60,874 nucleotides of DNA from Limosilactobacillus kribbianus (GTDB lineage: Bacteria > Bacillota > Bacilli > Lactobacillales > Lactobacillaceae): NCBI RefSeq assembly GCF_026413145.1, contig NZ_JAOVYZ010000006.1, positions 1 to 60,874 of the forward strand. Direction: 5' to 3'. The notes beneath the pieces are model-generated. The model was not told the origin of the DNA and did not search any database. It saw only the letters and a list, made by a program, of their open reading frames with translations. Positions 18,377-53,377 of the stretch are shown piece after piece. Both the position numbers and the translations under genes were made by a program. Every line of letters starts with the position of its first letter. Positions within the stretch are counted from its first letter, which is position 1.

Positions 18377-18393
18377 TGAAGGGATGACTTAAG

Positions 18394-39646: not shown

Positions 39647-39648
39647 TT
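39636..39648 (+). other. attL inside ssrA
   Basis: Core CGTCATCTCCATT at the end of the tmRNA acceptor stem. Sequence to its left is tmRNA; sequence to its right is element arm. Confidence 0.85.
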
Positions 39649-39660
39649 TTTAGCATTTTG

Positions 39661-39710
39661 AGTGTCTTTATATCATCGCAAAACGTTGATATAAAGGCAT
39701 TTTTGTTTTT
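39661..39710 (+). terminator. Terminator now serving ssrA, supplied by element 1
   Basis: TGTCTTTATATCA / TGATATAAAGGCA stem and TTTTTGTTTTT. A close copy follows the second att core. Confidence 0.75.
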
Positions 39711-39845
39711 ACGGAAACGCTGAAAAACGGATTTATTTTAACTTTGACGGCAAAATCATCCCTGCTTGCTGCCGGGCCCTTTTAGGGTGGCAGCAATGTC
39801 GGGTATAGTATAATGAATTTTGAGAATGTTTGACTGATAAACAAA

Positions 39846-39876
39846 AAGACAACCAACATAATAGTCGGCTGTCTAG
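39846..39876 (-). terminator. Terminator of the element 1 small-gene pair
   Basis: Minus strand AGACAGCC...GGTTGTCTTTTTG, overlapping the stop codon of the 60-residue gene. Confidence 0.6.
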
Positions 39877-40055
39877 TTGCTTAATTCATGTTGTCGTTGC
39901 TTGATACAGTTTAATAGCATTGTTAAGTCGTTTGCTGTGGCGTCCTTTAGAATAAAGTTTTTAGCTACTGACTTGCGGTTGATGTACTGAGTACGGGCTC
40001 TGTTCTTTCGGCGATACTTATTGATTGCCAGGTGTTGGGCTTCGGTCATTGCCAT
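39873..40055 (-). CDS. Small basic phage-type protein, 60 residues
   Basis: Strong ribosome site AAAGGAAG before the ATG. Basic, Arg/Asn-rich N-terminal half (NKYRRKNRARTQYINRKSVAKNFI) followed by a helix (ATANDLTMLLNCIKQRQHEL). It looks like the small proteins of unknown function found in lactobacillus prophages and plasmids. It starts four bases after the 58-residue gene, and both lie in the 1.0-kb remnant element. Confidence 0.6.
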   Translation of the reverse strand: MAMTEAQHLAINKYRRKNRARTQYINRKSVAKNFILKDATANDLTMLLNCIKQRQHELSN

Positions 40056-40059
40056 GCTG

Positions 40060-40236
40060 CTACTTCCTTTCGATTTTGAATTCTATTAGCTTGCGGCGCT
40101 TGCTCTTAGGGGTGTGCCGCCACTCATTGAATTTATGAACGTCTTGTTTAATCATCCCCATAATCTCACGGGGATTATACACGTCTAGTGCAATAGTAAC
40201 GTGTTTATTCTTTGACTGGTATTTGAAGCGTCTCAT
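40060..40236 (-). CDS. Small basic phage-type protein, 58 residues
   Basis: Start at the Met preceded by GAGGTTGAG, inside a longer frame. Basic protein MRRFKYQSKNKHVTIALDV... ending KRRKLIEFKIERK. Its stop is four bases before the next gene, which uses the end of this gene as its ribosome site (AAAGGAAGTAG). Family not recognised. Confidence 0.55.
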   Translation of the reverse strand: MRRFKYQSKNKHVTIALDVYNPREIMGMIKQDVHKFNEWRHTPKSKRRKLIEFKIERK

Positions 40237-40274
40237 ATTCTCAACCTCGGTTTTAAATGCTATAATATACACAT

Positions 40275-40320
40275 AAAAAGCCCCAAAGGTTGTTGACTTT
40301 GGCGAGTCAACCTTTGGGCG
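40275..40320 (-). terminator. Terminator of the 33-residue ORF
   Basis: Minus strand CCCAAAGGTTGACT / GTCAACAACCTTTGGGG stem and CTTTTTATG. Confidence 0.75.
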
Positions 40321-40332
40321 GTGTGTTAACCA

Positions 40333-40434
40333 CTAATCAAAAATAACTACTAACTTAAAGCGTAAGGGGACCAAGCTAAACTCAATTGAGTATGCTTTGA
40401 CCGAGCGCTTTTTGTTTTTGCTTTTTCCATTCAT
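40333..40434 (-). CDS. Putative 33-residue peptide
   Basis: ATG follows AAGGGGGTGG at a good distance and the frame ends in TAG. The product has a basic N terminus (MNGKSKNKKRS) and a hydrophobic C terminus (FSLVPLRFKLVVIFD). A promoter (TTGCTT-17-TATGAT) and a strong terminator frame it exactly, so a short transcript of this ORF is likely. A toxin, signal or leader peptide would fit, but no family is recognised. Confidence 0.45.
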   Translation of the reverse strand: MNGKSKNKKRSVKAYSIEFSLVPLRFKLVVIFD

Positions 40435-40467
40435 GGTAACCACCCCCTTTCCTTAGGGGCTAACTAC

Positions 40468-40496
40468 ATCATATACATATGTAGGGATAGAAGCAA
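40468..40496 (-). promoter_or_regulatory. Promoter of the 33-residue ORF
   Basis: Minus strand TTGCTT (40491-40496), 17 bases, TATGAT (40468-40473). Confidence 0.6.
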
Positions 40497-40646
40497 TAGC
40501 TATTTTGATTAGTATGAAATTATTGAGACAAAATCAGAAGGGGATGGACGCTGGTTGGTCCATTCACCTGTTAGTGCTTGTTCAATCTGCCTGGATCATT
40601 AGCGCAAATAATTGACTATCGATGCAATTAGGTTAGATTTTGTGCC

Positions 40647-40679
40647 ACGGGTTCGACTCCCGTCATCTCCATTTTTAGG
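40647..40679 (+). repeat. Second copy of the ssrA 3' end (att between elements)
   Basis: A 33-base exact copy of the tmRNA T arm, acceptor end and first arm bases, matching about 39621-39654. The core is 40661-40673. It marks the junction of the two elements. Lacking the 5' half, it is not a functional tmRNA. Confidence 0.85.
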
Positions 40680-40686
40680 GTTTTCA

Positions 40687-40735
40687 GTGCTTTTATACCA
40701 GCTCAAAACGTTGATATAAAGGCATTTTTATTTTT
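40687..40735 (+). terminator. Terminator copy in the arm of element 2
   Basis: GTGCTTTTATACCA / TGATATAAAGGCA stem and T-rich tail; diverged copy of the hairpin at 39661-39710. Confidence 0.65.
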
Positions 40736-40770
40736 GGAAAAACATTGAAAAACGTATTTTTTGCCACGAT

Positions 40771-40791
40771 TGCGGAAAAAGTGCGGAAAAA
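40771..40791. repeat. Left copy of a 21-base arm repeat
   Basis: Two TGCGGAAAAA units in tandem. The same 21 bases recur exactly at 53306-53326, near the other end of element 2. Probably integrase arm-binding sites. Confidence 0.6.
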
Positions 40792-40896
40792 TAATGAGCT
40801 TCTCCCCAGCGTGGTGTCGCCTGTTTAGGCGGCTTTTTATTTTGTTCTGCGGAAAAATCATCTTTTTAGTGTGTTAGGTATGTGAGCATAGACAAA

Positions 40897-40934
40897 AGGG
40901 GATGAGCCTGTTTGTTGGTTCATCCCCATTTAAC
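40897..40934 (-). terminator. Terminator of the lipoprotein gene
   Basis: Minus strand ATGGGGATGA / TCATCCCCTTTT stem. Confidence 0.75.
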
Positions 40935-40944
40935 TTAGTAATTA

Positions 40945-41484
40945 TTAGTAATTGTCGTCTAAATGATAATAGGCTTTCCCGGCGTCGTTAAATCTACCGT
41001 CTGGCCCTATGAAGCCATGTGACTGGTCAAATTGTTCTTCTTGATCTTGTGCCTGTACCCAAGCGTCCGGGCTGCCGTCCGGGTTTGAACCTGCGGCGTG
41101 ATCTTGTCCTGGTAGAAGTGGGGCGCCGTTTGGGTCATATCCACGTTCACGGTTAATCTCACCTTGTGACTTTCCCTGCGCCTGCTGCTGGCCACCATTA
41201 CCGCCGCTGTTAGATTGAGCGGTTGCCTGTTGAGTATTGCCGCTCTGCTGATTAGAAGCGCTGCTAGTGGCCACCTGGCTGCTGTCATTGCTGCTAGGCG
41301 AGGACTGTTTATCCTTGTGGTTCTTATTAGCTGCTTTCTTATGTGACTTATGGTGCTTAACTACTTTGGTAGACGTAGTAGACGAACTGCTGGCCGCCTT
41401 GTGTGATTGCGACGCCAGATTATTGCACCCGGCTAAACTAAGCCCGGCCAATATCGTGACACAAGCTAAACCTAATCTTTTCAT
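40945..41484 (-). CDS. Element-borne lipoprotein
   Basis: About 179 residues from ATG 41484, behind GGGGGTATT; the longer frame upstream is not needed. The signal peptide ends in a clear lipobox (LAGLSLAGC, Cys near 21). After it come a Ser/Thr/Lys/His and Gln/Asn/Ser low-complexity spacer and an acidic C-terminal part with GYDPNGAPLLPGQDHAAGSNPDGSPDAWVQAQDQEEQFDQ. This end resembles the short C-terminal modules of lactobacillus lipoproteins. Last gene before the left att, so a typical cargo position. Function unknown; superinfection exclusion would be one possibility. Confidence 0.75.
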   Translation of the reverse strand: MKRLGLACVTILAGLSLAGCNNLASQSHKAASSSSTTSTKVVKHHKSHKKAANKNHKDKQSSPSSNDSSQVATSSASNQQSGNTQQATAQSNSGGNGGQQQAQGKSQGEINRERGYDPNGAPLLPGQDHAAGSNPDGSPDAWVQAQDQEEQFDQSHGFIGPDGRFNDAGKAYYHLDDNY

Positions 41485-41948
41485 TCTGAAATACCCCCAA
41501 TAGTAAACATTTACAACTCTATTATGCTCCAGTTTCGGGAAAGTGACTGCTTCAACGTTAAAAACATTGATTTTTCTAGTAATGATGGTTGCTCTGCGTA
41601 AATAAGATGGTCGATTGTATAGCTGCGGCGCTTTCATGTTGTCTGAATGACCAATGGAACTGTAGAAAACACTAAAATGGGCAAAATAATGGACTTGTTG
41701 AACGTGCTAAATACTGATTTTTCAATAATTGGCGAATGATACCCCCCGCACCCTAAAATTTCAAAAATTATCCCTTGTGTGTAAGACGACGGCAATGTGT
41801 GCTGCTCTCTTCGTGGCATGATAAAATATGAGTGTGTATGGTAATTTGTGTAAAGGCGGCTATGTGAGGGTTGCCTTTTCTTTTTTAAGGGGGCCGAAAG
41901 TGTCAGAAATACCTTTTAGGGTGTCGGAAATGTCGGAATCATCCCCAG
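41485..41948. other. 464 bases without a supported gene
   Basis: Only a short minus-strand frame without ribosome site (41634-41819) is present. The stretch holds a plus-strand hairpin with T run (GGCGGC...GTTGCCTTTTCTTTTTT, about 41857-41887) and direct repeats of TGTCGGAA near 41895-41940. It may contain the promoter of the lipoprotein gene. Confidence 0.4.
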
Positions 41949-42314
41949 CTAGTGCATAAGCTTGTAAGCCATCAACAATGCTTTACGTTGTCGATGATAG
42001 AAGCTGCCCTCTGTAATCTGGTAATGGTTCGCCGCCAACTCTGCCAGTGTCGTTTTGGTGCGGTGCCGCTTGATAAATCGTTGTTCTAAGATTATTCCAC
42101 TGGCCTGGTCAACCTTGCCAACTACGGTAACGATATGCTGCCGGGTTTTTAGTTCAGATATGGCCCTCGTGTGCTCCAGTTGTTCCTGGTCGGTCACTCT
42201 GGGGTTGCTGTCGTCCACTCTAAGCGATATTAGTTGCCAGTCCTTGAATTGTCTTAGGTAGTTCTTGGCTGCGGTGGCGGCTGTCTTTTCTCCAGTTGTG
42301 GGGATGGTTGACAT
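41949..42314 (-). CDS. ArpU/RinA-like phage transcriptional regulator
   Basis: 121 residues. The C-terminal half has a sigma-region-4-like helix-turn-helix pattern (LEQRFIKRHRTKTTLAELAANHYQITEGSFYHRQRKALLMAYKL), as in ArpU-type late regulators of Gram-positive phages. The N-terminal half is helical with charged residues. In phages this family activates packaging and lysis genes; here no such genes follow, only the lipoprotein gene. Assignment rests on pattern only. Confidence 0.55.
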   Translation of the reverse strand: MSTIPTTGEKTAATAAKNYLRQFKDWQLISLRVDDSNPRVTDQEQLEHTRAISELKTRQHIVTVVGKVDQASGIILEQRFIKRHRTKTTLAELAANHYQITEGSFYHRQRKALLMAYKLMH

Positions 42315-42423
42315 GAGACAATCACTCCAATTACAATAAATTTGGTTTCTTTTTATATCGAAGGGCGTGCCACCTGGTGCGATCTTTAGTCCGTTGTTAA
42401 TTCAACGGGCTTTTTTATTGCTA

Positions 42424-42570
42424 TCATTCAATCAAACATATCAAAACAATAGCAATCATTATCCCGGCCGTAATCGTGTTGGTGGTCCAGTAGGCCGTTG
42501 TCATTGAAACATGAAAGATATGCGCCACTAGACTGTAAAACATATAATCATCAAACGAATTAAGCAGCAT
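42424..42570 (-). CDS. Small membrane protein, 48 residues
   Basis: ATG 42570 is preceded by GGGGGATGA. One hydrophobic helix at residues ~31-47 (TITAGIMIAIVLICLIE) after a Phe/Tyr/His-rich segment. No family recognised. It sits in the leftward gene series between ArpU-like and replication genes. Confidence 0.5.
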   Translation of the reverse strand: MLLNSFDDYMFYSLVAHIFHVSMTTAYWTTNTITAGIMIAIVLICLIE

Positions 42571-42594
42571 TTGTTGTCATCCCCCTATTTGAGT

Positions 42595-42635
42595 AAAGGC
42601 CGTTGCTCTGGAATTTCAATGAGCAGCGGCCTTTA
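42595..42635 (-). terminator. Terminator after the 26-residue ORF
   Basis: TAAAGGCCG-C-TGCTC / GAGCA-A-CGGCCTTTA stem directly behind the stop codon. Confidence 0.6.
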
Positions 42636-42636
42636 T

Positions 42637-42717
42637 TTACTGTAATAAATCATCAATTGATTTATCAATTTCTTTTTGTTGCTTTTCAATTTCCTTATCT
42701 AAATTGAGATTATCCAT
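42637..42717 (-). CDS. Putative 26-residue peptide
   Basis: ATG follows AAGGGGGGTGATC, a very strong ribosome site. The product (MDNLNLDKEIEKQQKEIDKS... ending LLQ) is a charged amphipathic helix. It ends immediately before a hairpin. Possibly a real microprotein or a leader peptide. Confidence 0.4.
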   Translation of the reverse strand: MDNLNLDKEIEKQQKEIDKSIDDLLQ

Positions 42718-43145
42718 AACGATCACCCCCCTTAACTACGCAATCAACGTCAATATAGGCTTTAATGTCAGGTTTTGTAAGGCTCTAGCCCCAGCTAAAG
42801 GATGAGCCGGGAAGCTTAATAGTCCTATCATTTACTATCACTTTTCATCATCAATTTAACTACGATCATCCCCATAAGCGGAACTTTTGGGCAATCGTTG
42901 GGGATGATAATTACTGTTAAATCAACGATTGCGGCAATTGCCAGCGTTTCACATTTCATGGAATAATTTCACATTATCACCACCAATCTAACTACGAAAC
43001 TATAAGCAATGTTAACTTTTGTTAAGCTTCGATTAACTACAAATATTCCCGGCAATGTCCAGTTTTGACCAGTCCATTTTTGAGTAGATATACCGTTATA
43101 TCAACAATTATCGAACATTGGTAAGTTGTGAAGTTGGTGGAACAT
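42718..43145. repeat. Non-coding stretch with repeat modules A and B
   Basis: No gene is supported. It contains TTAACTAC(G/A)A boxes near 42732, 42857, 42989 and 43033. Two copies of a 19-base repeat, in minus orientation, lie at 42912-42930 and 43091-43109. A stem ATCATCCCC / GGGGATGAT lies at about 42865-42909. Confidence 0.6.
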
Positions 43146-43526
43146 TCAGTCGCTCACTAAACCGATATTTTTGTATGCTGTCGTAACCTTATTACTGTAA
43201 TATCCAGCATAAAAGCGATGGTGCTTCTGGTATACGAACCCCAATAACTCCATGTTGCGTTTGAACTGCCGGGAACTTAGCGGCTCCAGTCCTTGCTGCT
43301 TGCAATATTCCTTGTAGCGATCATAGACGACACGACAAGCACTATAAAAGCGTCTGTCTTTCTTCACCTGGTCCGAATACACGAAACTAATTACTGTTTT
43401 GTCTGCCTGGTCCTTGTTGCGAACTCTGAAATGATAGTCTGTTTTACTTTCTGCCATCATCCGTGCCAGGCTGCGTCTACTAAAAATATAACGTCCACGA
43501 TACCAACCCAATATCATCAACTCCAT
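43146..43526 (-). CDS. Stand-alone D5/P4-primase-type C-terminal winged-helix protein
   Basis: 126 residues. The core YDRYKEYCKQQGLEPLSSRQFKRNMELLGFVYQKHHRFYAGYYSNKV matches the pattern of the C-terminal DNA-binding winged helix of P4/D5-type primase-helicases. In phages it is normally fused to the helicase; here it is a separate gene 1.2 kb away from the helicase. Weak ribosome site, so the start is unsure. It could help recognise the origin. Confidence 0.55.
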   Translation of the reverse strand: MELMILGWYRGRYIFSRRSLARMMAESKTDYHFRVRNKDQADKTVISFVYSDQVKKDRRFYSACRVVYDRYKEYCKQQGLEPLSSRQFKRNMELLGFVYQKHHRFYAGYYSNKVTTAYKNIGLVSD

Positions 43527-43957
43527 TTCTGAATATATTCTTATTTAGCTCTGTAAGCTCTTCTAAGCGCTTTTAGGTGATAAACGATAAATTATATTAC
43601 TCACCACTTAGCTACCTCAAAACTGCCCGAATATTTAGAATAATTAAGCATATCGAACACACGGTCTATCCTTTGCTCTGACCACTCACTAAATTAACTA
43701 CAATTCAGATCCTTTTCCAACAAATAACAAGCTCATTACCCTTGCAATTGTTGATTTAACAGTATTCTTAGGATGTTGGTTCTCGTAGGTCAAAAAAAGG
43801 TAGTCCCACTATATAGACCAACTTTATTTATTAGTTAGTGTCATTGTCTATCCTTGCTCTCCAGATTGACTACAATTCTGTTCCTTTTCCGCCGAATAAA
43901 TTAAATCATCCCCCGATTATCGTTGATATAACAGTAATTGGGGGATGCTTCTTTTTA
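43527..43957. repeat. Non-coding stretch with repeat modules C and D
   Basis: No gene is supported in 431 bases. Two related ~95-base modules (about 43670-43766 and 43842-43940) share GTCTATCC, TTGCTCT, ACTACAATTC, TCCTTTTCC and the 19-base repeat in plus orientation (43746-43764 and 43918-43936). The second lies in the loop of a stem ATCCCCC / GGGGGAT. Confidence 0.6.
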
Positions 43958-44380
43958 TCACTCTAGTCGATCATATTCGTACAATTTTTCATTAATTGAG
44001 TAGTTACTGAAATAGCTATCAATTACCCTCTTCTTAGTTTCCCTATTCTTACCTGTACTGTGTGAGTAATCATCAATAACGGCTTTAAGGTGATTAATTA
44101 TCTGCCCCTCGATTTGTTGCGCTTCTTTGAGTGTTTTATTGTATTTGGCAACAAGCTGCCTGTTTTGCTCTAGCAGGGTAGGAACATGGTGTTTAATTAT
44201 ACCCATGTCGTCCAGTACTTTTTTATGAACGAACGGTATTTTGATTAGGCTTCTATTCAATTGTGCTTCATTCTCTGCGATTTGCTTGTCTAGCTTCTTA
44301 ATCTGAACCAGTTTGATCTTATTAGTATTAAGCCCCAGAACGACGCTAGATAAATGATCTTCAATTTCTTCACGGTTCAT
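43958..44380 (-). CDS. Coiled-coil hypothetical protein, 140 residues
   Basis: Starts after AGAGGTAATT. Long charged helices with heptad character (KLDKQIAENEAQLN..., LLEQNRQLVAKYNKTLKEAQQIEGQIINHL). No membrane segment or known domain recognised. First gene after the putative origin on the leftward side. Confidence 0.6.
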   Translation of the reverse strand: MNREEIEDHLSSVVLGLNTNKIKLVQIKKLDKQIAENEAQLNRSLIKIPFVHKKVLDDMGIIKHHVPTLLEQNRQLVAKYNKTLKEAQQIEGQIINHLKAVIDDYSHSTGKNRETKKRVIDSYFSNYSINEKLYEYDRLE

Positions 44381-44484
44381 GGTAATTACCTCTTTTTATA
44401 GTCCGACTAATCTGTCATTACTTTTAAGGGTGCAAAATCTGAACATGGTACCTGGCCATTCCTTTTATAGGGTGCCCAATGTGC

Positions 44485-44790
44485 CTATGGCAACAAGCAA
44501 CAAGCTAGAAAGGAATGTTGCCAGGTTTTGTTACCTTACTAACCCCTTGATATATCTGACTTTTTAAGCCACTGGCAACAAGGCAACGATTTTATAGTAG
44601 AAAATCTCTTTTAAGGAAAAAAGCTTAATTTTAGTGTTTTTTCTTTTATATGTAATATTTCTATGTTGCTTTGTTGCTTTGTTGCTTTTTAGTGTGTAAA
44701 TGTGGTTGTATCAATGGATGGCGAAAAGCAACAATTTATAAACTTGTGAGTCAGTTTGTTGCTTTTCTACCATTTTTGTTGCTTTTGACA
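44485..44790. other. Putative replication origin with iterons
   Basis: AT-rich, gene-free stretch directly behind the helicase gene. Three exact tandem 8-mers GTTGCTTT lie at 44665-44688. More copies of GTTGC/GCAAC occur at 44489-44505, 44516-44522, 44573-44587, 44724-44732, 44757-44765 and 44776-44784. Satellites and plasmids of this replication type often carry such sites beside the helicase gene. Confidence 0.5.
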
Positions 44791-46346
44791 AAAAGCGGCT
44801 GTTTTTTACTAGGGTTAACCTTTACGCCGTACTTGTAGTGAATATCTAATTCATTCAGCCTATTCATATCATCATTTTCCCAATCAAGAAGTGGCGCTAA
44901 ATTGTTTCTGGAATATTCCCATCCCTTATCTGCCATTAGTGGCTTGGCTCTACGGGTAAAGGTGGGCTGTTTGATTTTCTGTGGGTTGTTCTCGTAGTCC
45001 ATAGCAGCTAGGAAAAGCTTAAACAAGAATGCAACGGGAATACGGGTACTCTCCAGCTCTGGTAAGTAGTTCTCAATGAAGTGATCTACGCTGTCGTTGT
45101 CTTCTTTGATGTCCTTGATGATCTCCTGGCTTTCTGCGGTGTCTTGTAACACGTCTGGGGTCATACTAAGGGCTTTTTTTAGTACGAACTCTAGCAGCCG
45201 TTGGTCCTTGATGTATTCATCTTTGATACGCTTGTTGGCTGCGGTGGCCTTGTATTGATGGTCGAATACGATTACCCGGAATCGTCTGAACAGGGCGTCG
45301 GAAGTGTCGCTAAAACGTGGAATACCATTCATCGACTGAACAATGAAGTTATTAAAGCGATAGTTAAATGGTGTAAGTCCTTTAGGGTTGATGAGGATGT
45401 TTTCTCCAGTTGCTACGCTCTTAAAATTCTCACTGGTCCGGTTATAGTCGTTTGGGTTATTATCATCCCCAATTAATAGGGCCTTGCCAGTGGCGCTTGC
45501 TAACTTAAAATCATCTTCAAACTCTTTTAGTTTCAATGAGCCGTAATTACCAGCGCCCACTAGGTTTTCCAGTAATCGCTCAAATGTACTTTTACCAGTG
45601 CGTCCTTGTCCGTTGTCCACTAGGAAAATGGCAACGTCGGTGGTCAGATTAGGATTAACCACTGCCGATATGGTTTGCCATAACAGTAGCAGCTTGTCAC
45701 GGTCGCCACCTGCGATCTGCTGAAACCATTCCGACAACTGCCAGCCATTGAATGATGGTTCCGTAGCATTGGCGTTGTAATTGGTCATGATCTTGTGTCT
45801 GAACACGTATTTAGACGAGAACGGCTCCAGCTTGTGGGTGTGCTGATTGTAAATACCGTTGTTAACGGGGATGAGCCATTTAGTCCGGGTTTCTGTAAGA
45901 CGGTGGCTATCTAAAAACAGATAATGTCTTATTTCTGCTAGCTGCCGGGTGGTTAAGGAACGCTCAATACAAGTGGCAAGCTTTTCCAATGTTCGTTGAC
46001 TAGCCTTATATGTCCCACTGTCCAGGTCATAAAACGAAACCTGGCCCCGTTCCATTTCTTCATCATCATCGGCAATAATTCCGTAGTGTAAGTATTTCTC
46101 TAGAATATCTGCTACTGTGCGTGGTGAGGGATGAAAGATTTTGGTATTCCCGTTTTTAAGCTCTTTTTTATGCTTATCTCGCCACCGCTCACCATCTTGC
46201 TGTAACTGCGCTTCTAACTCTTTCATTGTTTTTGGCGGCGTAGTTTGTTGACTGCGGCGCTGGTCCAGGTCATTAAATAAAGCGTTAAGCCCTAATGCCT
46301 TAACTACGGGGTTATTAGTGTCTAACGCCTGTCTTTTTTTGCTCAC
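44751..46346 (-). CDS. SF3 (D5/P4-type) replicative helicase
   Basis: 531 residues, starting with GTG. Residues ~60-200 form a D5_N-like region (PRTVADILEKYLHYGIIADDDEEM). The SF3 ATPase core has Walker A GQGRTGKSTF near residue 250, Walker B-like LIGDDNN and motif C VQSMNG. It should unwind the element's origin. It overlaps the prim-pol gene by four bases (GTGA), so the two chains are made together. The last ~20 codons, encoding KSNKNGRKATN, contain iteron-like repeats. Confidence 0.85.
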   Translation of the reverse strand: MSKKRQALDTNNPVVKALGLNALFNDLDQRRSQQTTPPKTMKELEAQLQQDGERWRDKHKKELKNGNTKIFHPSPRTVADILEKYLHYGIIADDDEEMERGQVSFYDLDSGTYKASQRTLEKLATCIERSLTTRQLAEIRHYLFLDSHRLTETRTKWLIPVNNGIYNQHTHKLEPFSSKYVFRHKIMTNYNANATEPSFNGWQLSEWFQQIAGGDRDKLLLLWQTISAVVNPNLTTDVAIFLVDNGQGRTGKSTFERLLENLVGAGNYGSLKLKEFEDDFKLASATGKALLIGDDNNPNDYNRTSENFKSVATGENILINPKGLTPFNYRFNNFIVQSMNGIPRFSDTSDALFRRFRVIVFDHQYKATAANKRIKDEYIKDQRLLEFVLKKALSMTPDVLQDTAESQEIIKDIKEDNDSVDHFIENYLPELESTRIPVAFLFKLFLAAMDYENNPQKIKQPTFTRRAKPLMADKGWEYSRNNLAPLLDWENDDMNRLNELDIHYKYGVKVNPSKKQPLFVKSNKNGRKATN

Positions 46347-47113
46347 TTTCTCAACTCCTCTTTTAATACACTAGCAACGATTTTTCCGACTTCCCGGTCC
46401 TCTAGTGGTGGTGTATTGAATTGGTTAGCATAGTTAATCAACGTCCAGACGGTGTCGTTTTCCGCTCCAGCGTAAATCATCTGACCACATAGCCGGGTCA
46501 AATAATCGTTTCGCTGGCCCTCTGGTGCGCCCTTAACTATGTTGTCTAGCACTCTGCCCGTCCATTTCTTTCCGGGATGATAGCTGCCATGCTGCTTCCT
46601 GGTCGACTGTGGTTGATAGTTTGCTATCATTTCTAAGAGTAGGGCGCTGGGGTGTTTCATTTGTGCCCCATCATTGAGCCAACGATAGTAACCTTTTTCC
46701 GTTGTCGATGGTGGTACTAACACGTAATTGTTAGGATGAGCCTTAATATCAACGCCGGGAAGTAGGCCAATCACTTGCTTTAAGTGGCTGCCTTGAGGTT
46801 TCGTGTAAAACATTTGATAGCCACCACTTGCGGTCTTTTGTGTCCTAGTAGGTAAGATAACGCCGGGTGGTAGTTGCTTTATAGAAGCCATTCCGTCCTT
46901 GCCGTGTGCTTGTTTCGTATCAATATCCACTACAAAGAAGTCAGTGGTGCGTAAAGCAACGTTAGCGTTTGGGTACTTACTCCAGCATTTCTCTATTTGA
47001 TCTGTGGTAAGTGCCGGGCGGTTTGCGAACTTGATTAGGGGATGTTTACCGTTCATTGGTAAAACTGAATAGCCAAATCTTGCGTATTTGAGTGCGCTCT
47101 GTAACTTATCCAT
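46343..47113 (-). CDS. Prim-pol (AEP) DNA primase/polymerase
   Basis: 256 residues. N-terminal bifunctional primase-polymerase domain: LPMNGKHPLIKF, catalytic DxD in FFVVDIDTKQAHG near residue 61, ASGGYQMFYTKP and GVDIKAHPNNYVLVPPS. The C-terminal end is a small helical domain. It is normally fused to the SF3 helicase in phages and satellites; here it is a separate gene. Overlaps the preceding gene by eight bases. Confidence 0.85.
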   Translation of the reverse strand: MDKLQSALKYARFGYSVLPMNGKHPLIKFANRPALTTDQIEKCWSKYPNANVALRTTDFFVVDIDTKQAHGKDGMASIKQLPPGVILPTRTQKTASGGYQMFYTKPQGSHLKQVIGLLPGVDIKAHPNNYVLVPPSTTEKGYYRWLNDGAQMKHPSALLLEMIANYQPQSTRKQHGSYHPGKKWTGRVLDNIVKGAPEGQRNDYLTRLCGQMIYAGAENDTVWTLINYANQFNTPPLEDREVGKIVASVLKEELRK

Positions 47114-47582
47114 TGCTGGCCATTTCCAAACTGGGGTAGCTTAATTCACCATCCATGAAAAGCTTGACGAGTGCTTCTAATTCCTTGATAATCTGCTGGT
47201 CCCGGTTGGTTGCTTGTTGAATTGCGGTAAATAGGTCCTGGTTCGCTGCCAGCCGTCTGGAATTATTCCGCTTGATAGGGGATGTTTGGTCCATTTCTCT
47301 TAGCATGATATAAACTCGTGGCAACTGTGTTTCATCGTTAGTGATTAGTTGTAATTTGTAGAAAAGATTATGTTTAATTGCCAGTGCATAAGTTAAGCAA
47401 TTAGTGACACGTGTTAAGTCAGTCCCGGTAAAGGCTTCAACTTGTTTGGCTAGGGGATTGATAGCGTGTCCGCCGTCTGCGTCCTCCAGGTACCTTTTTA
47501 GCAACCGCAAGGCGTGGGTGGTTAAGTTAATGTCCCACTGCTCCCGGTGGCCGTCTGGCGCTGTGAGGGTAATTAGTTGCAT
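47106..47582 (-). CDS. Replication-operon hypothetical protein, 158 residues
   Basis: Unrecognised protein. N-terminal beta-like segment (LITLTAPDGHREQWDINLTTHALRLLKRYLEDA), then mostly helical; the Tyr/Leu/Arg-rich middle has no known motif. It overlaps both neighbours, which suggests a role in replication of the element. Confidence 0.65.
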   Translation of the reverse strand: MQLITLTAPDGHREQWDINLTTHALRLLKRYLEDADGGHAINPLAKQVEAFTGTDLTRVTNCLTYALAIKHNLFYKLQLITNDETQLPRVYIMLREMDQTSPIKRNNSRRLAANQDLFTAIQQATNRDQQIIKELEALVKLFMDGELSYPSLEMASNG

Positions 47583-47782
47583 GAGTTGTCACCATCCTTT
47601 TCTTTAACACTGGAAGCGTCGATAATGCGCTTGAGCTGTTCTGCGGTGTCTTTGAAACGGCTGTCGTCGATGATCTTAGCTTGGCTAACTAGGCTAGATG
47701 AGAACTCACCTTTAATAACCGCGAGTACCTTATTGCCCTTGTGGTCGTCTGCTAACATGAATTTGTAATTACTTTTTTTCAT
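47573..47782 (-). CDS. Hypothetical protein, 69 residues
   Basis: Start at the Met behind AAAGGAATAC. Basic beta-like N terminus (KKSNYKFMLADDHKGNKVLAVIKGEF) and a helical charged end. Overlaps the next gene by ten bases. No family recognised. Confidence 0.6.
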   Translation of the reverse strand: MKKSNYKFMLADDHKGNKVLAVIKGEFSSSLVSQAKIIDDSRFKDTAEQLKRIIDASSVKEKDGDNSCN

Positions 47783-47845
47783 TGTCGTATTCCTTTCTGT
47801 GTTGGGGATGTCCCCACTGAATCGCTTCATGATAGAATAGACAAG

Positions 47846-47862
47846 GCGGCACATATTGCCGC
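47846..47862. promoter_or_regulatory. Dyad upstream of the replication operon
   Basis: GCGGCA-CATAT-TGCCGC perfect inverted repeat, about 64 bases before the 69-residue gene, in a 178-base gap that may hold its promoter. Possible operator. Confidence 0.35.
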
Positions 47863-47960
47863 TATGCCTATATTTGTGAGCCTGTTAATGCTGTGTGATG
47901 TGGTAGTTATCCAGCGTTAACGGCTTTTTTATTTCATGAAGCATAATCATCATTTACTTT

Positions 47961-48263
47961 CTAAAACTCAATGTCTCTGATTATTTGTGTCCGTTTCTTT
48001 AGTTCAGCGATCTGTGAGGCCAGTGGTTCCAATGCCAGCTGTCGTTCCTCGTCATTAGTGATAATGAAGTAACCATTATTGGGCTTCCGGTACACTGCGC
48101 CGATTGGCTTGTGATGAAGTATGATTAAGCGACTAATGGTCATCCGAACCTTACGACTGCTCCAGCCTGTGATCTTCATAATCTCTTTTTGCGGTCGGGG
48201 CCGTTCCATCCCTTTAGGTAGTAGCTCCATAATTCGCTGCTCGTCCTTGTCTAAATGTTCCAT
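47961..48263 (-). CDS. Winged-helix-like DNA-binding protein, 100 residues
   Basis: LDKDEQRIMELLPKGMERPRPQKEIMKITGWSSRKVRMTISRLIILHHKPIGAVYRKPNNGYFIIT reads as a winged helix with a recognition helix near SSRKVRMTISRL. The C-terminal tail is a helix. Similar small proteins occur in phage replication modules. Starts directly behind the preceding gene. Confidence 0.65.
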   Translation of the reverse strand: MEHLDKDEQRIMELLPKGMERPRPQKEIMKITGWSSRKVRMTISRLIILHHKPIGAVYRKPNNGYFIITNDEERQLALEPLASQIAELKKRTQIIRDIEF

Positions 48264-48452
48264 CTATTTGGCCCCCTTCAATAGGTCTTTAAGCTCTGCT
48301 AGTTCCTGGATACTTTCATCAATCAAGGTGAGGGCGCTAACCTCTTGGCCGTCGGTGTATGTTTTGGCGGTGCCGTTTAGCGTCTTGACATTGCCTTCAA
48401 TGTCAGAAAGAAGCGAACTCTTTAATAACTTGGCGTCCTTACTTAGCTTCAT
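48264..48452 (-). CDS. Hypothetical protein, 62 residues
   Basis: Start at the Met behind GGGGGAAC. Mostly helical, charged (KLSKDAKLLKSSLLSDIEGNVKTLNG...ELAELKDLLKGAK). No family recognised. Adjoins the winged-helix gene. Confidence 0.6.
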   Translation of the reverse strand: MKLSKDAKLLKSSLLSDIEGNVKTLNGTAKTYTDGQEVSALTLIDESIQELAELKDLLKGAK

Positions 48453-48462
48453 ATTGTTCCCC

Positions 48463-48606
48463 CTAATTGGTAAATTGAGTAACTGTGCCAATAATAAAGG
48501 CTGCTACTGGTACAAATGTTGCCAGGTAAGCCCACAAGCGGTCACTTGGCGCCGTATACCAGAATGCCAGTATTCGATTATCAATAGTGCGTAATGCTTT
48601 CATCAT
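48463..48606 (-). CDS. Small membrane protein, 47 residues
   Basis: AGAGGTAATC precedes ATGATG. One membrane helix near residues 24-41 (WAYLATFVPVAAFIIGTV) after a charged, aromatic N terminus. Ten bases ahead of the 62-residue gene. Unknown function; holin-like small proteins look similar but the evidence is thin. Confidence 0.5.
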   Translation of the reverse strand: MMKALRTIDNRILAFWYTAPSDRLWAYLATFVPVAAFIIGTVTQFTN

Positions 48607-48624
48607 GATTACCTCTGTTCTGCT

Positions 48625-48685
48625 GCCGAACGCAAAATTGCGCTCGGCTATTCTTTACTCTGCTCAACGCAAAATTGCGTTGAGC
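48625..48685. repeat. Twin 24-base palindromes
   Basis: Two palindromes at 48625-48648 (one mismatch pair) and 48662-48685 (perfect) share the centre CGCAAAATTGCG. They lie 37 bases apart centre to centre, before the 47-residue gene. Likely protein-binding sites or hairpins in the leader. Confidence 0.5.
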
Positions 48686-48759
48686 CATACTTTTACTGGC
48701 CAGTCCAGAATTGGACCCGTCCTGTTTTCCCTACTCATTGCACGCTGGGGAGCCATGCT

Positions 48760-49044
48760 TTAGTTATTTTGCTGTTGTTGTGACTTCATCCACTTATCAA
48801 GGGATGATTTACAGTAATGCTTGCTACCCTCGATTGTGATGGTAGGAAAGCCAATATCTGCTCTTTCCCACTTGATGAGGGTACCTGGTGAAGTCCCCAG
48901 ATACTTAGCAGCCTGTCGTTGGTTCATATACTCTGGCCAGTGGTTCGTTGTCTTTGTGTCTGCCACCACCTGTTCAATAGCAGCCTTGACCATTGAAAGG
49001 GTGGCCTGCTCTAATTCCGGCGGTAGCTTTACTCCAATATCCAT
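48760..49044 (-). CDS. Excisionase-like helix-turn-helix protein
   Basis: 94 residues. The C-terminal half has the MerR/Xis-type HTH (YMNQRQAAKYLGTSPGTLIKWERADIGFPTITIEGSKHYCKSSLDKWM). An N-terminal helix precedes it. Proteins of this type act as excisionases or as AlpA-like regulators in satellites. Ribosome site AGGGGGATGATT. Confidence 0.7.
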   Translation of the reverse strand: MDIGVKLPPELEQATLSMVKAAIEQVVADTKTTNHWPEYMNQRQAAKYLGTSPGTLIKWERADIGFPTITIEGSKHYCKSSLDKWMKSQQQQNN

Positions 49045-49058
49045 GCTGAATCATCCCC

Positions 49059-49448
49059 CTAAATGCGGTCTAGCAAGGCTTTAGCTGCGTCTTTTAAGCT
49101 GTCTAGGGCGATCAAAGTATATCCATTTCTGAATCCCATTTGTTGTAGGCAAACAACCATGTAGGAAACGTCTGCGTATTTGATGATGTCATGTTCCTTA
49201 ATGAAAGTCCGATCTTCTAACGGCGTGCTTTCCGTCGGCTGGTTTCCACCGTAGTAAATCTCACCAATAAAAGGGATGTCTGCGGTGTGATCTTCAACGG
49301 TCATATCAAAGCCCATTCCGTCTTCATATTCTCCAGCGGTGAAAATACCATTCTCCAGGCGAACTTGGTCGCCGTCTTGTAGTTCAAACGTTTCTGCCTT
49401 GCGGTTGTTCAATTCATCTAAAATCTTTTGAGTGTCAACATTCTTCAT
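49059..49448 (-). CDS. Hypothetical protein, 129 residues
   Basis: Acidic protein with a beta-rich centre (LQDGDQVRLENGIFTAGEYEDGMGFDMTVEDHTADIPFIGEIYYGG). No known domain recognised. Ribosome site AAAGAGGTA. Second gene of the leftward early operon, behind the Cro-like gene. Confidence 0.6.
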   Translation of the reverse strand: MKNVDTQKILDELNNRKAETFELQDGDQVRLENGIFTAGEYEDGMGFDMTVEDHTADIPFIGEIYYGGNQPTESTPLEDRTFIKEHDIIKYADVSYMVVCLQQMGFRNGYTLIALDSLKDAAKALLDRI

Positions 49449-49472
49449 TCTGAAATACCTCTTTCTTTGTTG

Positions 49473-49718
49473 TTACTTGCTCTGTGCTGCTACCGTCCGA
49501 CTGTCGTTAATATCAGCCGTTGCGTATTCATCAATGAGCCAATCGCTTAGCTTTTTGTATGTAGCTGGTGTTACCTTACGATGGTTACGCTTGAAAATGT
49601 TGTCCAGCGTCCAACGGCTCAAACCAAGCTGGCGGCCAAGCGCTACTGTGGATAAGTTAAGCTCTCCACGTTTGCGCTTGATAGCCGTTACCTGCTTATC
49701 AGATAAGTACATAGACAT
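49473..49718 (-). CDS. Cro-like helix-turn-helix regulator
   Basis: 81 residues with an XRE-type HTH (KRGELNLSTVALGRQLGLSRWTLDNIFKRNHRKVTPATYKKLSDWL). Transcribed divergently from the repressor gene across a region with four operators, the standard Cro position. Ribosome site AAAGGAGATG. Confidence 0.75.
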   Translation of the reverse strand: MSMYLSDKQVTAIKRKRGELNLSTVALGRQLGLSRWTLDNIFKRNHRKVTPATYKKLSDWLIDEYATADINDSRTVAAQSK

Positions 49719-49742
49719 TTAGGTATCATCTCCTTTGCTTTA

Positions 49743-49870
49743 CCAACAAATTGTTGGGTTAGCGTCTAAAAATACAGCCCAACTACTTGTTGAGCTTACA
49801 AGTTAAATATATACCCAACAAATTGTTAGGTCAACTATTTGTTGATAAAAGTGTTAAATAGTCATATTAT
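49743..49870. promoter_or_regulatory. Genetic switch: four operators and two divergent promoters
   Basis: Four 15-base dyads of type CCAACAAATTGTTGG: 49743-49757 (perfect), 49779-49793, 49815-49829 and 49831-49845. Leftward promoter: TTGACC (49829-49834), 17 bases, TATATT (49806-49811). Rightward promoter: TTGATA (49842-49847), 17 bases, TATTAT (49865-49870). The third dyad fills the leftward spacer; the fourth overlaps both -35 boxes. Confidence 0.85.
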
Positions 49871-49896
49871 GGTTTAATGAAAGAGTGGTGAGTATT

Positions 49897-50718
49897 GTGT
49901 CACAAAATAAAAAAGCGCCTATGAACAATAATCGAATCAAAGAAGTTCGATTAGCGCAGCATAAAACGCAAAAAGATTTAGCAAAATTATTGGGTGTATC
50001 TGAACAGGCAATTGCTTATTATGAAAAAGCACAACGTGAGCCATCATTAAAGAGCTGGATTAAATTAGCTGATTATTTAGACGTTTCTACCCCTTATTTA
50101 CAAGGAATATCCAAAAATTCCAGAAATGAGATTAACAAGCAGCACTACACCATTAGCGATATTATTTCTCTAACTTATTCTTCTATCAAATTAATGTATG
50201 CATTCGCTGGTAGAAACAAGTATGACGTTATCCCAAACATACCAAGACTTCGGCCAAAATATGGTAATCCATTTAACTATACTGAAAGAGCTTGCCTTTT
50301 TGACACCACCGATACGTTACGAAAGTTTTCGGATACTGTGAAGCTCGGTGAGTTCATGAATGAGATTAAGAATGGAATCCTTACTAAATATTCCCAGAAA
50401 GGTTCTCTAGAGCAGATTGCAACTAGAAAAGACATAGATAAAATAATCATTCAGTTTTATGAAGCTGTTAGAGAAAAGTATTTGCAATGTATGGATAACA
50501 AGTCTTTTATCGATATGGTTAGCGATGATTTGTCGTATTTTGTTATAAATCAGGCAAAAGCGGACGTTTTTGGGACAACGACTTCATTTAGTGAAGGGAA
50601 ACGTTTTATCAATTCTGAGGACTTAACTAAGTTGCCAGAAGGGCTTAGCGCTGACGTTTATCAAAGGGTAATGGATGTGCTAAATCAAACTAAGGAAAAA
50701 CTAAATAAATTGAAATGA
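49897..50718 (+). CDS. XRE-family repressor (CI-like) of the element
   Basis: About 273 residues; start GTG 49897 with GGTGAG before it (GTG 49885 and ATG 49921 are alternatives). The HTH is at residues ~9-63 (RIKEVRLAQHKTQKDLAKLLGVSEQAIAYYEKAQREPSLKSWIKLADYL). The C-terminal 200 residues show no S24 LexA-like protease motif that I can see, so derepression by RecA cleavage is unlikely. In PICIs the master repressor is released by a helper-phage protein instead. Confidence 0.78.
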   Translation: MSQNKKAPMNNNRIKEVRLAQHKTQKDLAKLLGVSEQAIAYYEKAQREPSLKSWIKLADYLDVSTPYLQGISKNSRNEINKQHYTISDIISLTYSSIKLMYAFAGRNKYDVIPNIPRLRPKYGNPFNYTERACLFDTTDTLRKFSDTVKLGEFMNEIKNGILTKYSQKGSLEQIATRKDIDKIIIQFYEAVREKYLQCMDNKSFIDMVSDDLSYFVINQAKADVFGTTTSFSEGKRFINSEDLTKLPEGLSADVYQRVMDVLNQTKEKLNKLK

Positions 50719-50852
50719 TTAATTCTTATGAAACACTTTCACCGTATGTTTTTGTACGTTCTGTCTTTATTGAAACAAATTATTCTCAATTTTATTTACT
50801 GTGAAGTTACGTCCAAACGTGATCGACGTTAAAAGCTACTGGGAGGATTATT

Positions 50853-51236
50853 TTGGCTAAAAAGATCAAAGACGACGAGGGGAACGTCTATAAACAAGTA
50901 ACCCCAAGCAATTCTGATCGCAAGCGTACACTCGAAATTGTTATCGGAATTATTGCTATTGTTCTGTCTGTTGTGTGCATCGGTGGCAGTTTTGGGGCTG
51001 CCAGCGTTGCTGATGCCTTTGGTGGCGGCGGATACTATACCGCTAAAATGATGTTAGGGCTAGTTCTCGCCATAGCCGCTTTTGTTCTCGTGTTCTTTAT
51101 CAATAAAAAGCGGACATTAATTGGATGGCTCATTCTCGTATTTGGGCTAATCATTCTTTTTATGTGTGGGGAATATGGCATCATTCCTGGAATAGTCTAC
51201 GCAATTGATGGTGTTTTAATTTTAGTTAGAAAGTAG
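50853..51236 (+). CDS. Element membrane protein, 127 residues
   Basis: Starts with TTG behind GGGAGGATTA. The N-terminal motif MAKKIKDDEGNVYKQV is followed by four hydrophobic helices with a Gly-rich loop (GGSFGAASVADAFGGGGYY). The N-terminal motif is shared with the next gene. Function unknown; part of the lysogenic-side module next to the repressor. Confidence 0.6.
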   Translation: MAKKIKDDEGNVYKQVTPSNSDRKRTLEIVIGIIAIVLSVVCIGGSFGAASVADAFGGGGYYTAKMMLGLVLAIAAFVLVFFINKKRTLIGWLILVFGLIILFMCGEYGIIPGIVYAIDGVLILVRK

Positions 51237-51244
51237 GTTTTATT

Positions 51245-51925
51245 ATGGCTAAAAAGATGGTTGATAAAGATGGAAATACATATGTACAAGTAAAGCCCTG
51301 GTATAAGCGCTGGTGGGTTTGGGTACTCGTTGTAATTTTAATATTTGTTATTGGATCAGCAGCTGGTAGTGATGATTCTTCAAGTTCATCCAGTAGTTCA
51401 AGTGCCACAAGCAAACCAGTAAAGAATACAGCCAAAGAGGTAACGCTAGGTGCAGGAACCTATAAAGTAGGTCAAGACATCAAGCCTGGTCGATATGTTG
51501 TTACGGCAACAAACGGTAGCGGTAATTTTACTAACAAGTCTGGAAGTATCAACGTAATCTTAGGTACTTCAGAAGATGATGACGCTGGGCAGATTACCTC
51601 ATATACTGCCGACCTTCACAAGGGCGAAACCATTAAGCTAGAAGGTATCCAGTCAACTGATTTCAAGCCAACGCCAAAGCCTAAATATCAAACTACTTTG
51701 TCTGCTGGTTCATGGAAGGTTGGCCAAGATATTAAGCCTGGCCGATATGAAATCAAAGCTATGCAAGGTAGCGGTAATTTAACAACTTCTGATGGTGATG
51801 TTAACGAAATTCTTGGTACTGAATCTGATTCAGACTCTGGACAAGTTACTCATGTTACCGCTAATCTCTCAAACGGCCAGACGTTAAATACCGACCTTCA
51901 ACAAATTAAACTCATTAAGAAATAA
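51245..51925 (+). CDS. Membrane-anchored protein with two repeats, 226 residues
   Basis: N-terminal motif MAKKMVDKDGNTYVQV, one membrane helix (VWVLVVILIFVIGSAAG), a Ser run, then two copies of an extracellular repeat of ~70 residues. Each starts GTYKVGQDIKPGRY or GSWKVGQDIKPGRY and contains GSGN and ILGT. Both repeats end in a THVTANL-like strand. Only 8 bases separate it from the previous gene. It probably changes the host surface; function unknown. Confidence 0.65.
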   Translation: MAKKMVDKDGNTYVQVKPWYKRWWVWVLVVILIFVIGSAAGSDDSSSSSSSSSATSKPVKNTAKEVTLGAGTYKVGQDIKPGRYVVTATNGSGNFTNKSGSINVILGTSEDDDAGQITSYTADLHKGETIKLEGIQSTDFKPTPKPKYQTTLSAGSWKVGQDIKPGRYEIKAMQGSGNLTTSDGDVNEILGTESDSDSGQVTHVTANLSNGQTLNTDLQQIKLIKK

Positions 51926-52215
51926 GGTTCGGAAATTGCCCCAAATAAATTACCAATCGCTGATAAATATAAAGTGTCGATAGTTTGACCAACCGTCGCA
52001 ATTCACGACGGTATTATATGGGAACCCATCTCCGCCTTTGAGATGCTGCCGGGAATTTCAACCAGCTCAAAATTGCGCCCGTTAATTTTCCACACTTCTG
52101 GGGATGTTATTCGTATCATGGACTGGACCGGGTACACGTCCAGCCTGGTCCACTCATAAAAATACCCCTCTCATTGCCACGCTGGGGAGCTGTGCGAATG
52201 AAAAGGGGTTATCTT
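51926..52215. other. 290-base gap before the integrase gene
   Basis: No gene supported. It holds an inverted repeat with GGACTGGACC and GGTCC arms (about 52122-52153), a segment CTCAAAATTGCGCC like the centre of the twin palindromes, and one copy of CACGCTGGGGAG (52178-52189). Confidence 0.5.
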
Positions 52216-53301
52216 ATGAGTTATGTAAGGAAAGCTAAAAAAGGATACTACGGCGTTGCGGTATATCGTGACGAGAACGGGAAACGGCGGCAAAGATCTG
52301 CCGGGTGCTTTAAGTTAAAACGTGAAGCGGTATCTGCTGCCGTTGCATTGGAAAAGAAGCTTAATGCAATCAATCAACCGTTAAAGGATATATCACTAGC
52401 TGATTATTACCAGCGCTGGTATGAAACCTACAAACAGAATGGACTTTCCGGTATTTCTAAAAGTAGATATGAGATTTTCCATAAGGTAATCAGTAACTAT
52501 TTTGGTGATAAGAAGCTGCGGGCCATTCGTCGTTCTGATTACCAGCAATTTATTAATGAGTACGGGGCCAAGCACGCAATGTCCAGTGTTTCTAAGTTAA
52601 ACGGTGCCATTCGTTCCTGTGTGGGCTATGCAATTGATGATGATGTAATAACGAAAGACTTTACCCACAACGTCAAGCTAGTTAATAACAAGGAACGGGA
52701 ATACAAAGTAGAGTACCTAACCAATGATGAGTTGGTAACTCTTAAAAATGCTGTAATTGGCAAGCTTAACCGTTACAACACCAGCCGCTATATGATCTTG
52801 ACTGCTATTTACACGGGAATGCGAAAGAGTGAGATACAAGCGCTCACCTGGAAAGACATAGACTTTCTCCATGCAACGATCAGCATAAGTAAATCGTGGG
52901 ACGAAAAGAAAAAAGCTTTCAAATCAACTAAAACTAAATCAAGTAAACGGACGATCAAAGTTAATCGTGAGTTACTCAATCACTTAGCTGATCTAAAAGC
53001 TAATCAATCGGTTATGGTATTTCAGAATGTACTGGGGACCATCCCCACAAGTAACGCTCTGAATAAATGTTTACGTTCTATTATGGCGTCATGTAAGTTA
53101 AAAAAGCAAGGTTTCCACTTTCACTCACTGCGACACGTTCATGTTGCTTATCTATTGGGCAAGGGCGTAGACATTTACGCCATATCGAAAAGGCTGGGAC
53201 ATTCAAATATCACGGTAACGTTGAAAACTTATTCCTACTTAATAGAAGAATACAAAGCGAAAAACGATACGCTGATTATCGATAAGTTAGCGGAATTATG
53301 A
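52216..53301 (+). CDS. int: Tyrosine recombinase integrase
   Basis: About 361 residues. N-terminal AP2-like arm-binding domain (YVRKAKKGYYGVAVYRDENGKRRQRSAG), SAM-like core-binding domain (ISLADYYQRWYETYKQNG), and catalytic domain with Arg in TGMRKSEIQALTW, HSLRH, and Tyr in TLKTYSYL. Start ATG 52216 follows AAAAGGGG. It lies 64 bases from the right att core and should integrate the element into the ssrA 3' end. Confidence 0.93.
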   Translation: MSYVRKAKKGYYGVAVYRDENGKRRQRSAGCFKLKREAVSAAVALEKKLNAINQPLKDISLADYYQRWYETYKQNGLSGISKSRYEIFHKVISNYFGDKKLRAIRRSDYQQFINEYGAKHAMSSVSKLNGAIRSCVGYAIDDDVITKDFTHNVKLVNNKEREYKVEYLTNDELVTLKNAVIGKLNRYNTSRYMILTAIYTGMRKSEIQALTWKDIDFLHATISISKSWDEKKKAFKSTKTKSSKRTIKVNRELLNHLADLKANQSVMVFQNVLGTIPTSNALNKCLRSIMASCKLKKQGFHFHSLRHVHVAYLLGKGVDIYAISKRLGHSNITVTLKTYSYLIEEYKAKNDTLIIDKLAEL

Positions 53302-53305
53302 GTAA

Positions 53306-53326
53306 TGCGGAAAAAGTGCGGAAAAA
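53306..53326. repeat. Right copy of the 21-base arm repeat
   Basis: Exact copy of 40771-40791, directly behind the integrase stop and 39 bases before the att core. Confidence 0.6.
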
Positions 53327-53364
53327 AGTACCATAAAGCCCGGTATATAAGGGTCGTGTATGGT

Positions 53365-53377
53365 CGTCATCTCCATT
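53365..53377 (+). other. attR
   Basis: Core CGTCATCTCCATT. To its right lies what should be the original ssrA terminator. Confidence 0.85.

Follow-up and report, generated by a model that had tools for sequence, protein, structure and literature searches.

A probable cos-type phage satellite at the ssrA gene of Limosilactobacillus kribbianus

This study concerns a 12.7-kb integrated element at the 3' end of ssrA (positions 40661-53377) in a 60,874-nucleotide stretch of DNA from Limosilactobacillus kribbianus (NCBI RefSeq assembly GCF_026413145.1, contig NZ_JAOVYZ010000006.1). This stretch, hereafter the window, is the entire contig G000:C62 of a 2.1-Mb draft genome. Limosilactobacillus is a genus of gut and food bacteria, and pairs of satellite and helper have been studied in depth in staphylococci and enterobacteria. 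Judged by its sequence and that of its relatives, the element is very probably a phage satellite of the phage-inducible chromosomal island (PICI) kind that carries a cohesive-end (cos) packaging site.

Boundaries, gene content and origin of the element

Two copies of a 13-bp core, CGTCATCTCCATT, flank the element on the plus strand at 40661-40673 (left attachment core, attL; repeat search, blastn and core-copy count) and at 53365-53377 (right core, attR; blastn and core-copy count). The single further copy in the window (39636-39648) lies at the 3' end of ssrA, the tmRNA gene on the plus strand (39274-39648; ARAGORN gene 39274-39646), and marks the attachment (att) site. These cores refined the ends given in an initial annotation of this DNA (40674-53364), which were right to about 13 bp. 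The core-to-core length of 12,704 bp is the expected excised size and agrees with the size of about 15 kb given for PICIs in the accessible portion of PMC6092414, the source of the PICI criteria that we applied (structural genes, size, att site, packaging, repressor, interference and exclusive genes).

Read from the right end, the element opens on the plus strand with a tyrosine integrase (52213-53301; PF00589, E 4.9e-23; phrog_1, 1.5e-74), two superinfection-exclusion-like membrane or surface genes (50853-51925; second gene phrog_32160, 6.5e-31, and phrog_4980, 2.8e-10) and a CI-like repressor (49909-50718). The repressor matched HTH_3 only (E 3.2e-16), with no match to the peptidase S24 self-cleavage domain in the Pfam scan, as the initial annotation had also read it; this is consistent with the non-SOS repressor, relieved by a helper protein, that the same portion of PMC6092414 lists for PICIs. 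A repeat search found an operator-like pair, CCAACAAATTGTTGGGT and CCAACAAATTGTTAGGT, between the divergent regulators (49743-49831). Leftward, on the minus strand, follow a Cro-like regulator (49473-49718; HTH_3, E 1.6e-4; phrog_11187), u129 (49059-49448; no Pfam or PHROGs match), at whose place relatives carry a Rha/antirepressor-type gene, and an HTH_17 excisionase/AlpA-like (xis-like) protein (48760-49044; PF12728, E 3.4e-5; phrog_668, 1.9e-16; phrog_66, 2e-7), so that the integrase, repressor/Cro switch and excisionase-like gene annotated earlier are all present by domain match. The small early genes on the same strand are u75 and u47 (48264-48606), u100, a small HTH-like protein of phrog_2113 (47961-48263; E 1.3e-19), u93 (47573-47854) and u158 (47106-47582). 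Among these, u75, u47 and u93 were recognized as conserved by comparison with the close relatives L009 and L010 (described below), in which u158 is 49-90% identical; u158 is 38% identical in an L. reuteri circle. A 38-44-bp leader lies upstream of the exclusion-like genes (50806-50850), and the same leader precedes surface genes in L009 and in the resident prophage G000:C10 (88% over 44 bp).

The replication module, which had been proposed earlier and was recovered here, consists of a primase-polymerase (prim-pol; 46343-47113, minus strand; PF09250, E 8.8e-28, and PF08708, that is, Prim-Pol plus PriCT_1) and a D5/P4-type superfamily 3 (SF3) helicase (44751-46346, minus strand; PF19263, PF03288 and PF08706, that is, DUF5906/Pox_D5). 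Prim-pol alone was dropped as a satellite marker, given that its relatives also occur in prophages. Behind the SF3 stop codon, eight GCAACAA iterons fall within 460 nt, a number reached in 0 of 500 shuffles and the best among all 460-nt tiles of the contig, and the candidate iterons of the initial annotation are therefore real. They stand on either side of an AT-rich core (~44600-44661) in a stretch (44488-44790) that we regard as a candidate PICI-type replication origin. The window has 12 copies of the motif AAGCAACA where 2.63 would be expected, and 7 of the 12 lie within 44495-44784. Arrays of other sequence occupy the same place in relatives: ACCAACA in L009, AAACCGA in L010 and ACCCGTC in L012 (0/500 shuffles each), and, more weakly, CGGTTTA in L072 (1/500) and CCGGTTA in L011 (11/500); L073 has none at this place (365/500 shuffles reach it). 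In L010, an insertion sequence-like transposase gene (287 aa; 8068-8931) interrupts the iteron/AT-rich origin, and the SF3 match ran across one stop codon in the genus-genome search.

Further to the left, on the minus strand, lie cc140 (43958-44380), a coiled-coil-like protein conserved in relatives by domain scan and comparison, and wh126 (43146-43526), a stand-alone Pox_D5 C-terminal protein of winged-helix type (PF03288, E 2.1e-5). The wh126 gene adjoins a conserved non-coding block common to relatives (43033-43105; blastn) and is 64-76% identical across eight relatives with differing replication genes. It was found in 6 of 397 family genomes, all 6 of this genus, had no match in phage records and had one match in plasmid records, NZ_CP104439.1. 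With regard to genes exclusive to satellites, wh126 also occurs in the IMG/VR contig L166, and u100 belongs to a phage family. In that contig (IMGVR_UViG_2937153597_000002), otherwise satellite-like, wh126 is followed downstream by a tape-measure gene (11194-13497; 767 aa, PF20155). A structure model of wh126 was poor (mean predicted local distance difference test score 49) and was not used.

The next gene (41949-42314, minus strand) had been called an ArpU-like regulator. The gene is present and aligns with a relative in L149 (48%; 87% in L010 and 37% in L146), and that relative matches TIGR01637 weakly (E 3.7e-4). The gene's own profile match is weak (phrog_248, E 2.7e-4), with no NCBIfam or phage-record match, and the assignment to ArpU-like late regulators is thus weak by profile and leans on relatives. 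After the cos-like site comes a presumed cargo gene for a lipoprotein-like, low-complexity secreted protein (40945-41637, minus strand; phrog_31882, a family of unknown function, E 1.3e-21), whose N terminus is 41% identical to a gene product of the resident prophage.

The hidden Markov model search proposed with the initial annotation was run with Pfam and PHROGs on 17 element proteins, the 47- and 48-aa open reading frames being left out. None of them matched a virion, lysis or relaxase family, in line with the lack of structural and lytic genes that the accessible portion of PMC6092414 gives for PICIs. Terminase, portal, capsid and HNH queries had no tblastn match in the window, a search that is incomplete given that L053, L054, L056 and L059, prophages by phrog_2, gave no TerL match either. 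The earlier claim that capsid, portal, tail, terminase and lysis genes are absent held in the profile scan and, for terminase, portal and capsid genes, in tblastn, and the element lacks what would mark a capsid-forming PICI or, with no relaxase or conjugation family in the 17 proteins, an integrative mobilizable or conjugative element. A search of 72,556 plasmid records gave no DNA match to the element, megablast against phage records gave none either, and a prim-pol search of viral contigs was likewise negative. The findings that had been named as able to overturn the satellite reading (virion genes, conjugation genes or homologues confined to conjugative plasmids) were looked for, including in these plasmid records, and none appeared. 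PADLOC, run on 6 window proteins, matched no defense family.

Between the ssrA core and attL lies a 1.0-kb stretch (39649-40660) with two small genes, r60 (39873-40055) and r70 (40060-40272). Relatives of r70 (68%) and r60 (73%) adjoin the tRNA-Leu att end of satellite L148 in the same order, and r60 is also 42% identical to a phiadh gene neighboring the phiadh att site. The stretch is probably what remains of one end of a previously integrated element, which was most likely a further satellite; a prophage end, suggested by the phiadh likeness, was dropped given that L148 holds both genes in order. As to whether the att site is one unused by prophages, the remnant beside ssrA is likelier satellite-derived, yet r60 has a prophage relative.

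A cos-like site shared with prophages

The cos-like packaging site lies at 41742-41818 on the plus strand. By blastn, window positions 41638-41948 resemble satellite DNA as well as DNA of the prophages L057 and L058; in the prophages, the matching DNA directly precedes a 151-aa gene that is TerS by PF05119 (L058). In the prophage of genome G030 (L068/L069), which also has head, tape-measure and tail genes, the same DNA stands between HNH and TerS-TerL-portal genes. A profile built from three prophage sites matched the window at 39.5 bits (nhmmer, E 5.8e-10; profile positions 2-77 of 94) and 14 other loci at 19-67 bits, that is, 15 of 41 loci examined (L013, L014 and L060, which are among the 41, fall outside this kind of satellite), and reached at most 10.2 bits on controls of 60 Markov windows (3.65 Mb). 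The orientation of the site relative to the replication genes is that relative to terS in prophages for 14 of these 15 loci, the exception being L118.

A second profile, built from 12 satellite sites, matched 9 of 9 prophages that have an intact TerL at at least 66% identity. Three of the nine were the seed prophages, so six are new; three further TerL places lay outside the scanned set. None of 19 loci with TerL at or below 34% matched, and L185 (39% TerL) reached 13.0 bits, a marginal score that falls short of the control maximum (14.3). L186, with a broken 230-residue TerL fragment at 82%, had no cos site, and a distant search with the cos of the G027 prophage returned a chance-level match only. 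An exact scan of 2.9 million IMG/VR viral contigs for the cos pattern found 20 stretches, every one between HNH and TerS genes. Three genomes (G030, G007 and G036) each carry both a satellite and a prophage with the cos site. We conclude that the ~94-bp site corresponds to the predicted cos region of HNH-TerS-TerL phages, of which satellites appear to carry a copy. PICIs are packaged through a TerS of their own or a pac or cos site of the helper; the element has no TerS of its own and has a cos-like site without the G-rich arm, and relatives have the complete site. What the window copy keeps is the AT-rich part and the invariant ATGTGTGC block.

Relatives, transfer between species and an excised circle

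A search of 50 genus genomes with the SF3 helicase gave 7 matches, two of them at 84-85%. These two close relatives, L009 in L. secaliphilus (85%) and L010 in genome G030 (84%), belong to two other species, and L010 occupies the same ssrA site. Between the window and L010, the stretch from the integrase to the exclusion-like genes is 94% identical and the chromosomal flanks only 74-79%, which indicates transfer of the element from one species to another. The three differ in the switch region and also in the far-end gene, which encodes the lipoprotein-like protein in the window, a 526-aa membrane protein in L010 and a relative of XrtG-associated glycosyltransferases in L009.

Integrase relatives at at least 64% identity occupy 18 places in 15 of 47 genus genomes, and no TerL was found within 30 kb of these 18 by the phrog_2 and L068 TerL searches, several of the places being on short contigs. 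The same layout recurs in genus relatives with other replication genes, a DnaD-like loader in L148 and a VapE-type protein in L147, and relatives end at tRNA-Leu, tRNA-Glu/Gln or tRNA-Thr. Across the family, the SF3 profile matched at 31 places, spread over 29 of 397 genomes. At one place (G407, 627-aa type), phrog_2 detected a TerL within 30 kb; this count is a minimum, since the TerL of L013 escaped phrog_2.

L013 (G041:C1:158000-177900) was dropped as a satellite once its PF03354-type TerL, missed by phrog_2, was recognized, and is a capsid-forming element. HNH, TerS, TerL, portal and S78 protease-capsid fusion genes (~5700-19600) stand beside its SF3 replication gene; the compact element ends near tRNA-Ser, and the stretch holds no gene of tape-measure size. 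Its TerL has relatives at 98% in L060 (G001) and 86% in the IMG/VR locus L167, and it looks like a capsid-forming PICI in Limosilactobacillus. L167 and L175 are two adjacent elements in one 24-kb viral contig (IMGVR_UViG_2937174130_000006), one of them with TerL. A more distant SF3-bearing integrative element, L014 (G032), encodes a MobA-type relaxase (11869-13326), and the SF3 family is thus not confined to satellites. Given the capsid-forming L013 and the relaxase-bearing L014, the SF3 gene alone defines no satellite. In L117 (G381), a 1091-aa SNF2/type III restriction-like gene (11682-14957), possibly defense cargo, adjoins a satellite-type replication module.

A circular relative was found in NZ_CP104439.1 (L165), a 10,428-bp circle deposited as 'plasmid unnamed1' of L. 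reuteri AM_LB1 and typed as non-mobilizable. Its proteins resemble those of the window element (integrase 74%, Cro 90%, u100 63% and wh126 69%). Ring positions 3240-3430 match L152 at 2938-2750 (95%, tRNA-Glu side) and positions 3416-3500 match L152 at 16101-16017 (95%, integrase side), with a 15-nt overlap that places attP at ~3416-3430. Given that the circle junction matches both ends of the integrated L152, it is read as an attP junction, and by this comparison NZ_CP104439.1 represents an excised satellite and no ordinary plasmid.

Alternative readings and the proposed cycle

Several observations weigh against the satellite reading or the cos assignment on which it draws. The window score is not fully independent, because the prophage sites were first noticed by their likeness to window positions 41638-41948. 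No site of at least 19 bits was present in 26 of the 41 loci, including the same-genus satellites L146, L147, L149, L150 and L151. The annotated COS of phiAT3 aligns with the invariant TGTGTG block, with a profile hit (8.3-13.1 bits) within the control range, and phage A2 gave no credible profile hit. The cos scan of the window's genome, which covered the window and contig C10, found no such site in the resident prophage G000:C10, and no known capsid-resizing or helper-interference gene was recognized in the element. Others bear on whether this particular copy is still mobile. Directly right of the invariant core it is ~23 nt shorter than L010 (window 41812-41817 versus L010 5002-5031), its G-rich right arm (profile positions 78-94) is unrecognizable whereas other aligned copies have some form of it, and no cognate-type TerL was found in the window's own genome. 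The element could therefore be a grounded copy of the right lineage, with part of cos lost and no helper present, a sub-case of the satellite reading that we consider possible though rather doubtful, given that the invariant block aligning with the phiAT3 COS is kept, the open reading frames are intact, and a helper does not have to reside in the same genome (the L. secaliphilus genome that carries L009 likewise lacks one).

In favor of a prophage that decayed by losing its late genes, the genes as far as the ArpU-like one follow the order of early regions in temperate phages, and at 15 of 67 prim-pol places a prim-pol relative (40-47%) belongs to a prophage whose TerL lies 5-12 kb further downstream. 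However, the virion-free layout with the same kind of ends recurs in other species, the prim-pol of the prophage maps examined pairs with helicase open reading frames of 411-435 aa and not with an SF3 helicase of ~530 aa, and a circular relative exists, all of which make decay very improbable. We give slightly less credence still to conjugative transfer of an integrative mobilizable or plasmid-like element: SF3/prim-pol genes are also found in 34 plasmid records and the more distant L014 carries a relaxase, but the window element has none, the L. reuteri circle was typed non-mobilizable, and the window element bears a phage cos site. Instead, a phage satellite, as the initial annotation had proposed, is supported by the existence of a lineage, by a relative found as an excised circle, by the PICI-type origin, by a cos site in common with HNH-TerS-TerL prophages and by the lack of virion and conjugation genes.

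Its suggestion of a new system was too strong, given that cos-type Staphylococcus aureus pathogenicity islands (SaPIs; SaPIbov4 and SaPIbov5) carry a copy of the helper cos site in staphylococci, according to the available part of PMC5052747. As described there, these islands have in common with the window element an integrase and repressor switch, their own replicon, no full set of virion genes, a helper cos copy and a size of 10-14 kb. They differ in host and helper, the likeness being one of features and not a tested sequence kinship, and no ccm or other capsid homologue was found in the window element, in which prim-pol and helicase are separate genes. Among phage records, the best SF3 matches were Streptococcus satellite phages (36%); these 'Javan' satellites (MK448663 and others; PMC6813308) have the same order of integrase, regulators, small genes and primase pair, with SF3 helicase identity at only ~36%. 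The StCI satellites of S. thermophilus likewise belong to a lactic acid bacterium and have putative cos-like sites, but the part of PMC13376191 at hand reports a different cos sequence (CCAC.ACAAGGTG), induction by virulent phages and movement by competence. The G030 prophage and the lactobacillus phages with an HNH-cos-TerS-TerL order share the ~94-bp site and differ in their head, tape-measure and tail genes, absent from the element. A literature search of partial coverage found no paper describing Limosilactobacillus satellites.

From what the sequence establishes (boundaries, gene content, origin, cos similarity and the circular relative), we infer that a helper relieves repression, that the element replicates once excised and that the helper terminase packages it. 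A helper phage with an HNH-TerS-TerL module would lift repression through the non-cleavable repressor, after which the integrase and the xis-like protein would excise the element, and prim-pol and SF3 helicase would copy it from the iteron origin. The helper's HNH, TerS and TerL would then cleave the DNA at cos and load it, as a single unit or as several, into helper particles, and on entry into a new cell the element would reintegrate at ssrA. More speculatively, late transcription, either the element's own or the helper's, is the probable target of the ArpU-like protein. The likely helpers are HK97-like phages with HNH-TerS-TerL(PF03354/PF20441)-portal modules.

In summary, the element may represent one member of a wider Limosilactobacillus guild of cos satellites that would have a common integrase clade and swapped replication modules (prim-pol plus SF3 with switching iterons, a VapE-type protein or a DnaD-like loader) and in which wh126, as a dedicated DNA-binding module, would steer packaging or block the helper, although we hold this broader picture to be unlikely as a whole. 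The cos site points to a helper type, and both partners occur in the three genomes given above. A circular relative sits in the public record mislabeled as a plasmid, and the switching of iterons among relatives with 84-85% identical helicases provides a natural series for studies of origin recognition.

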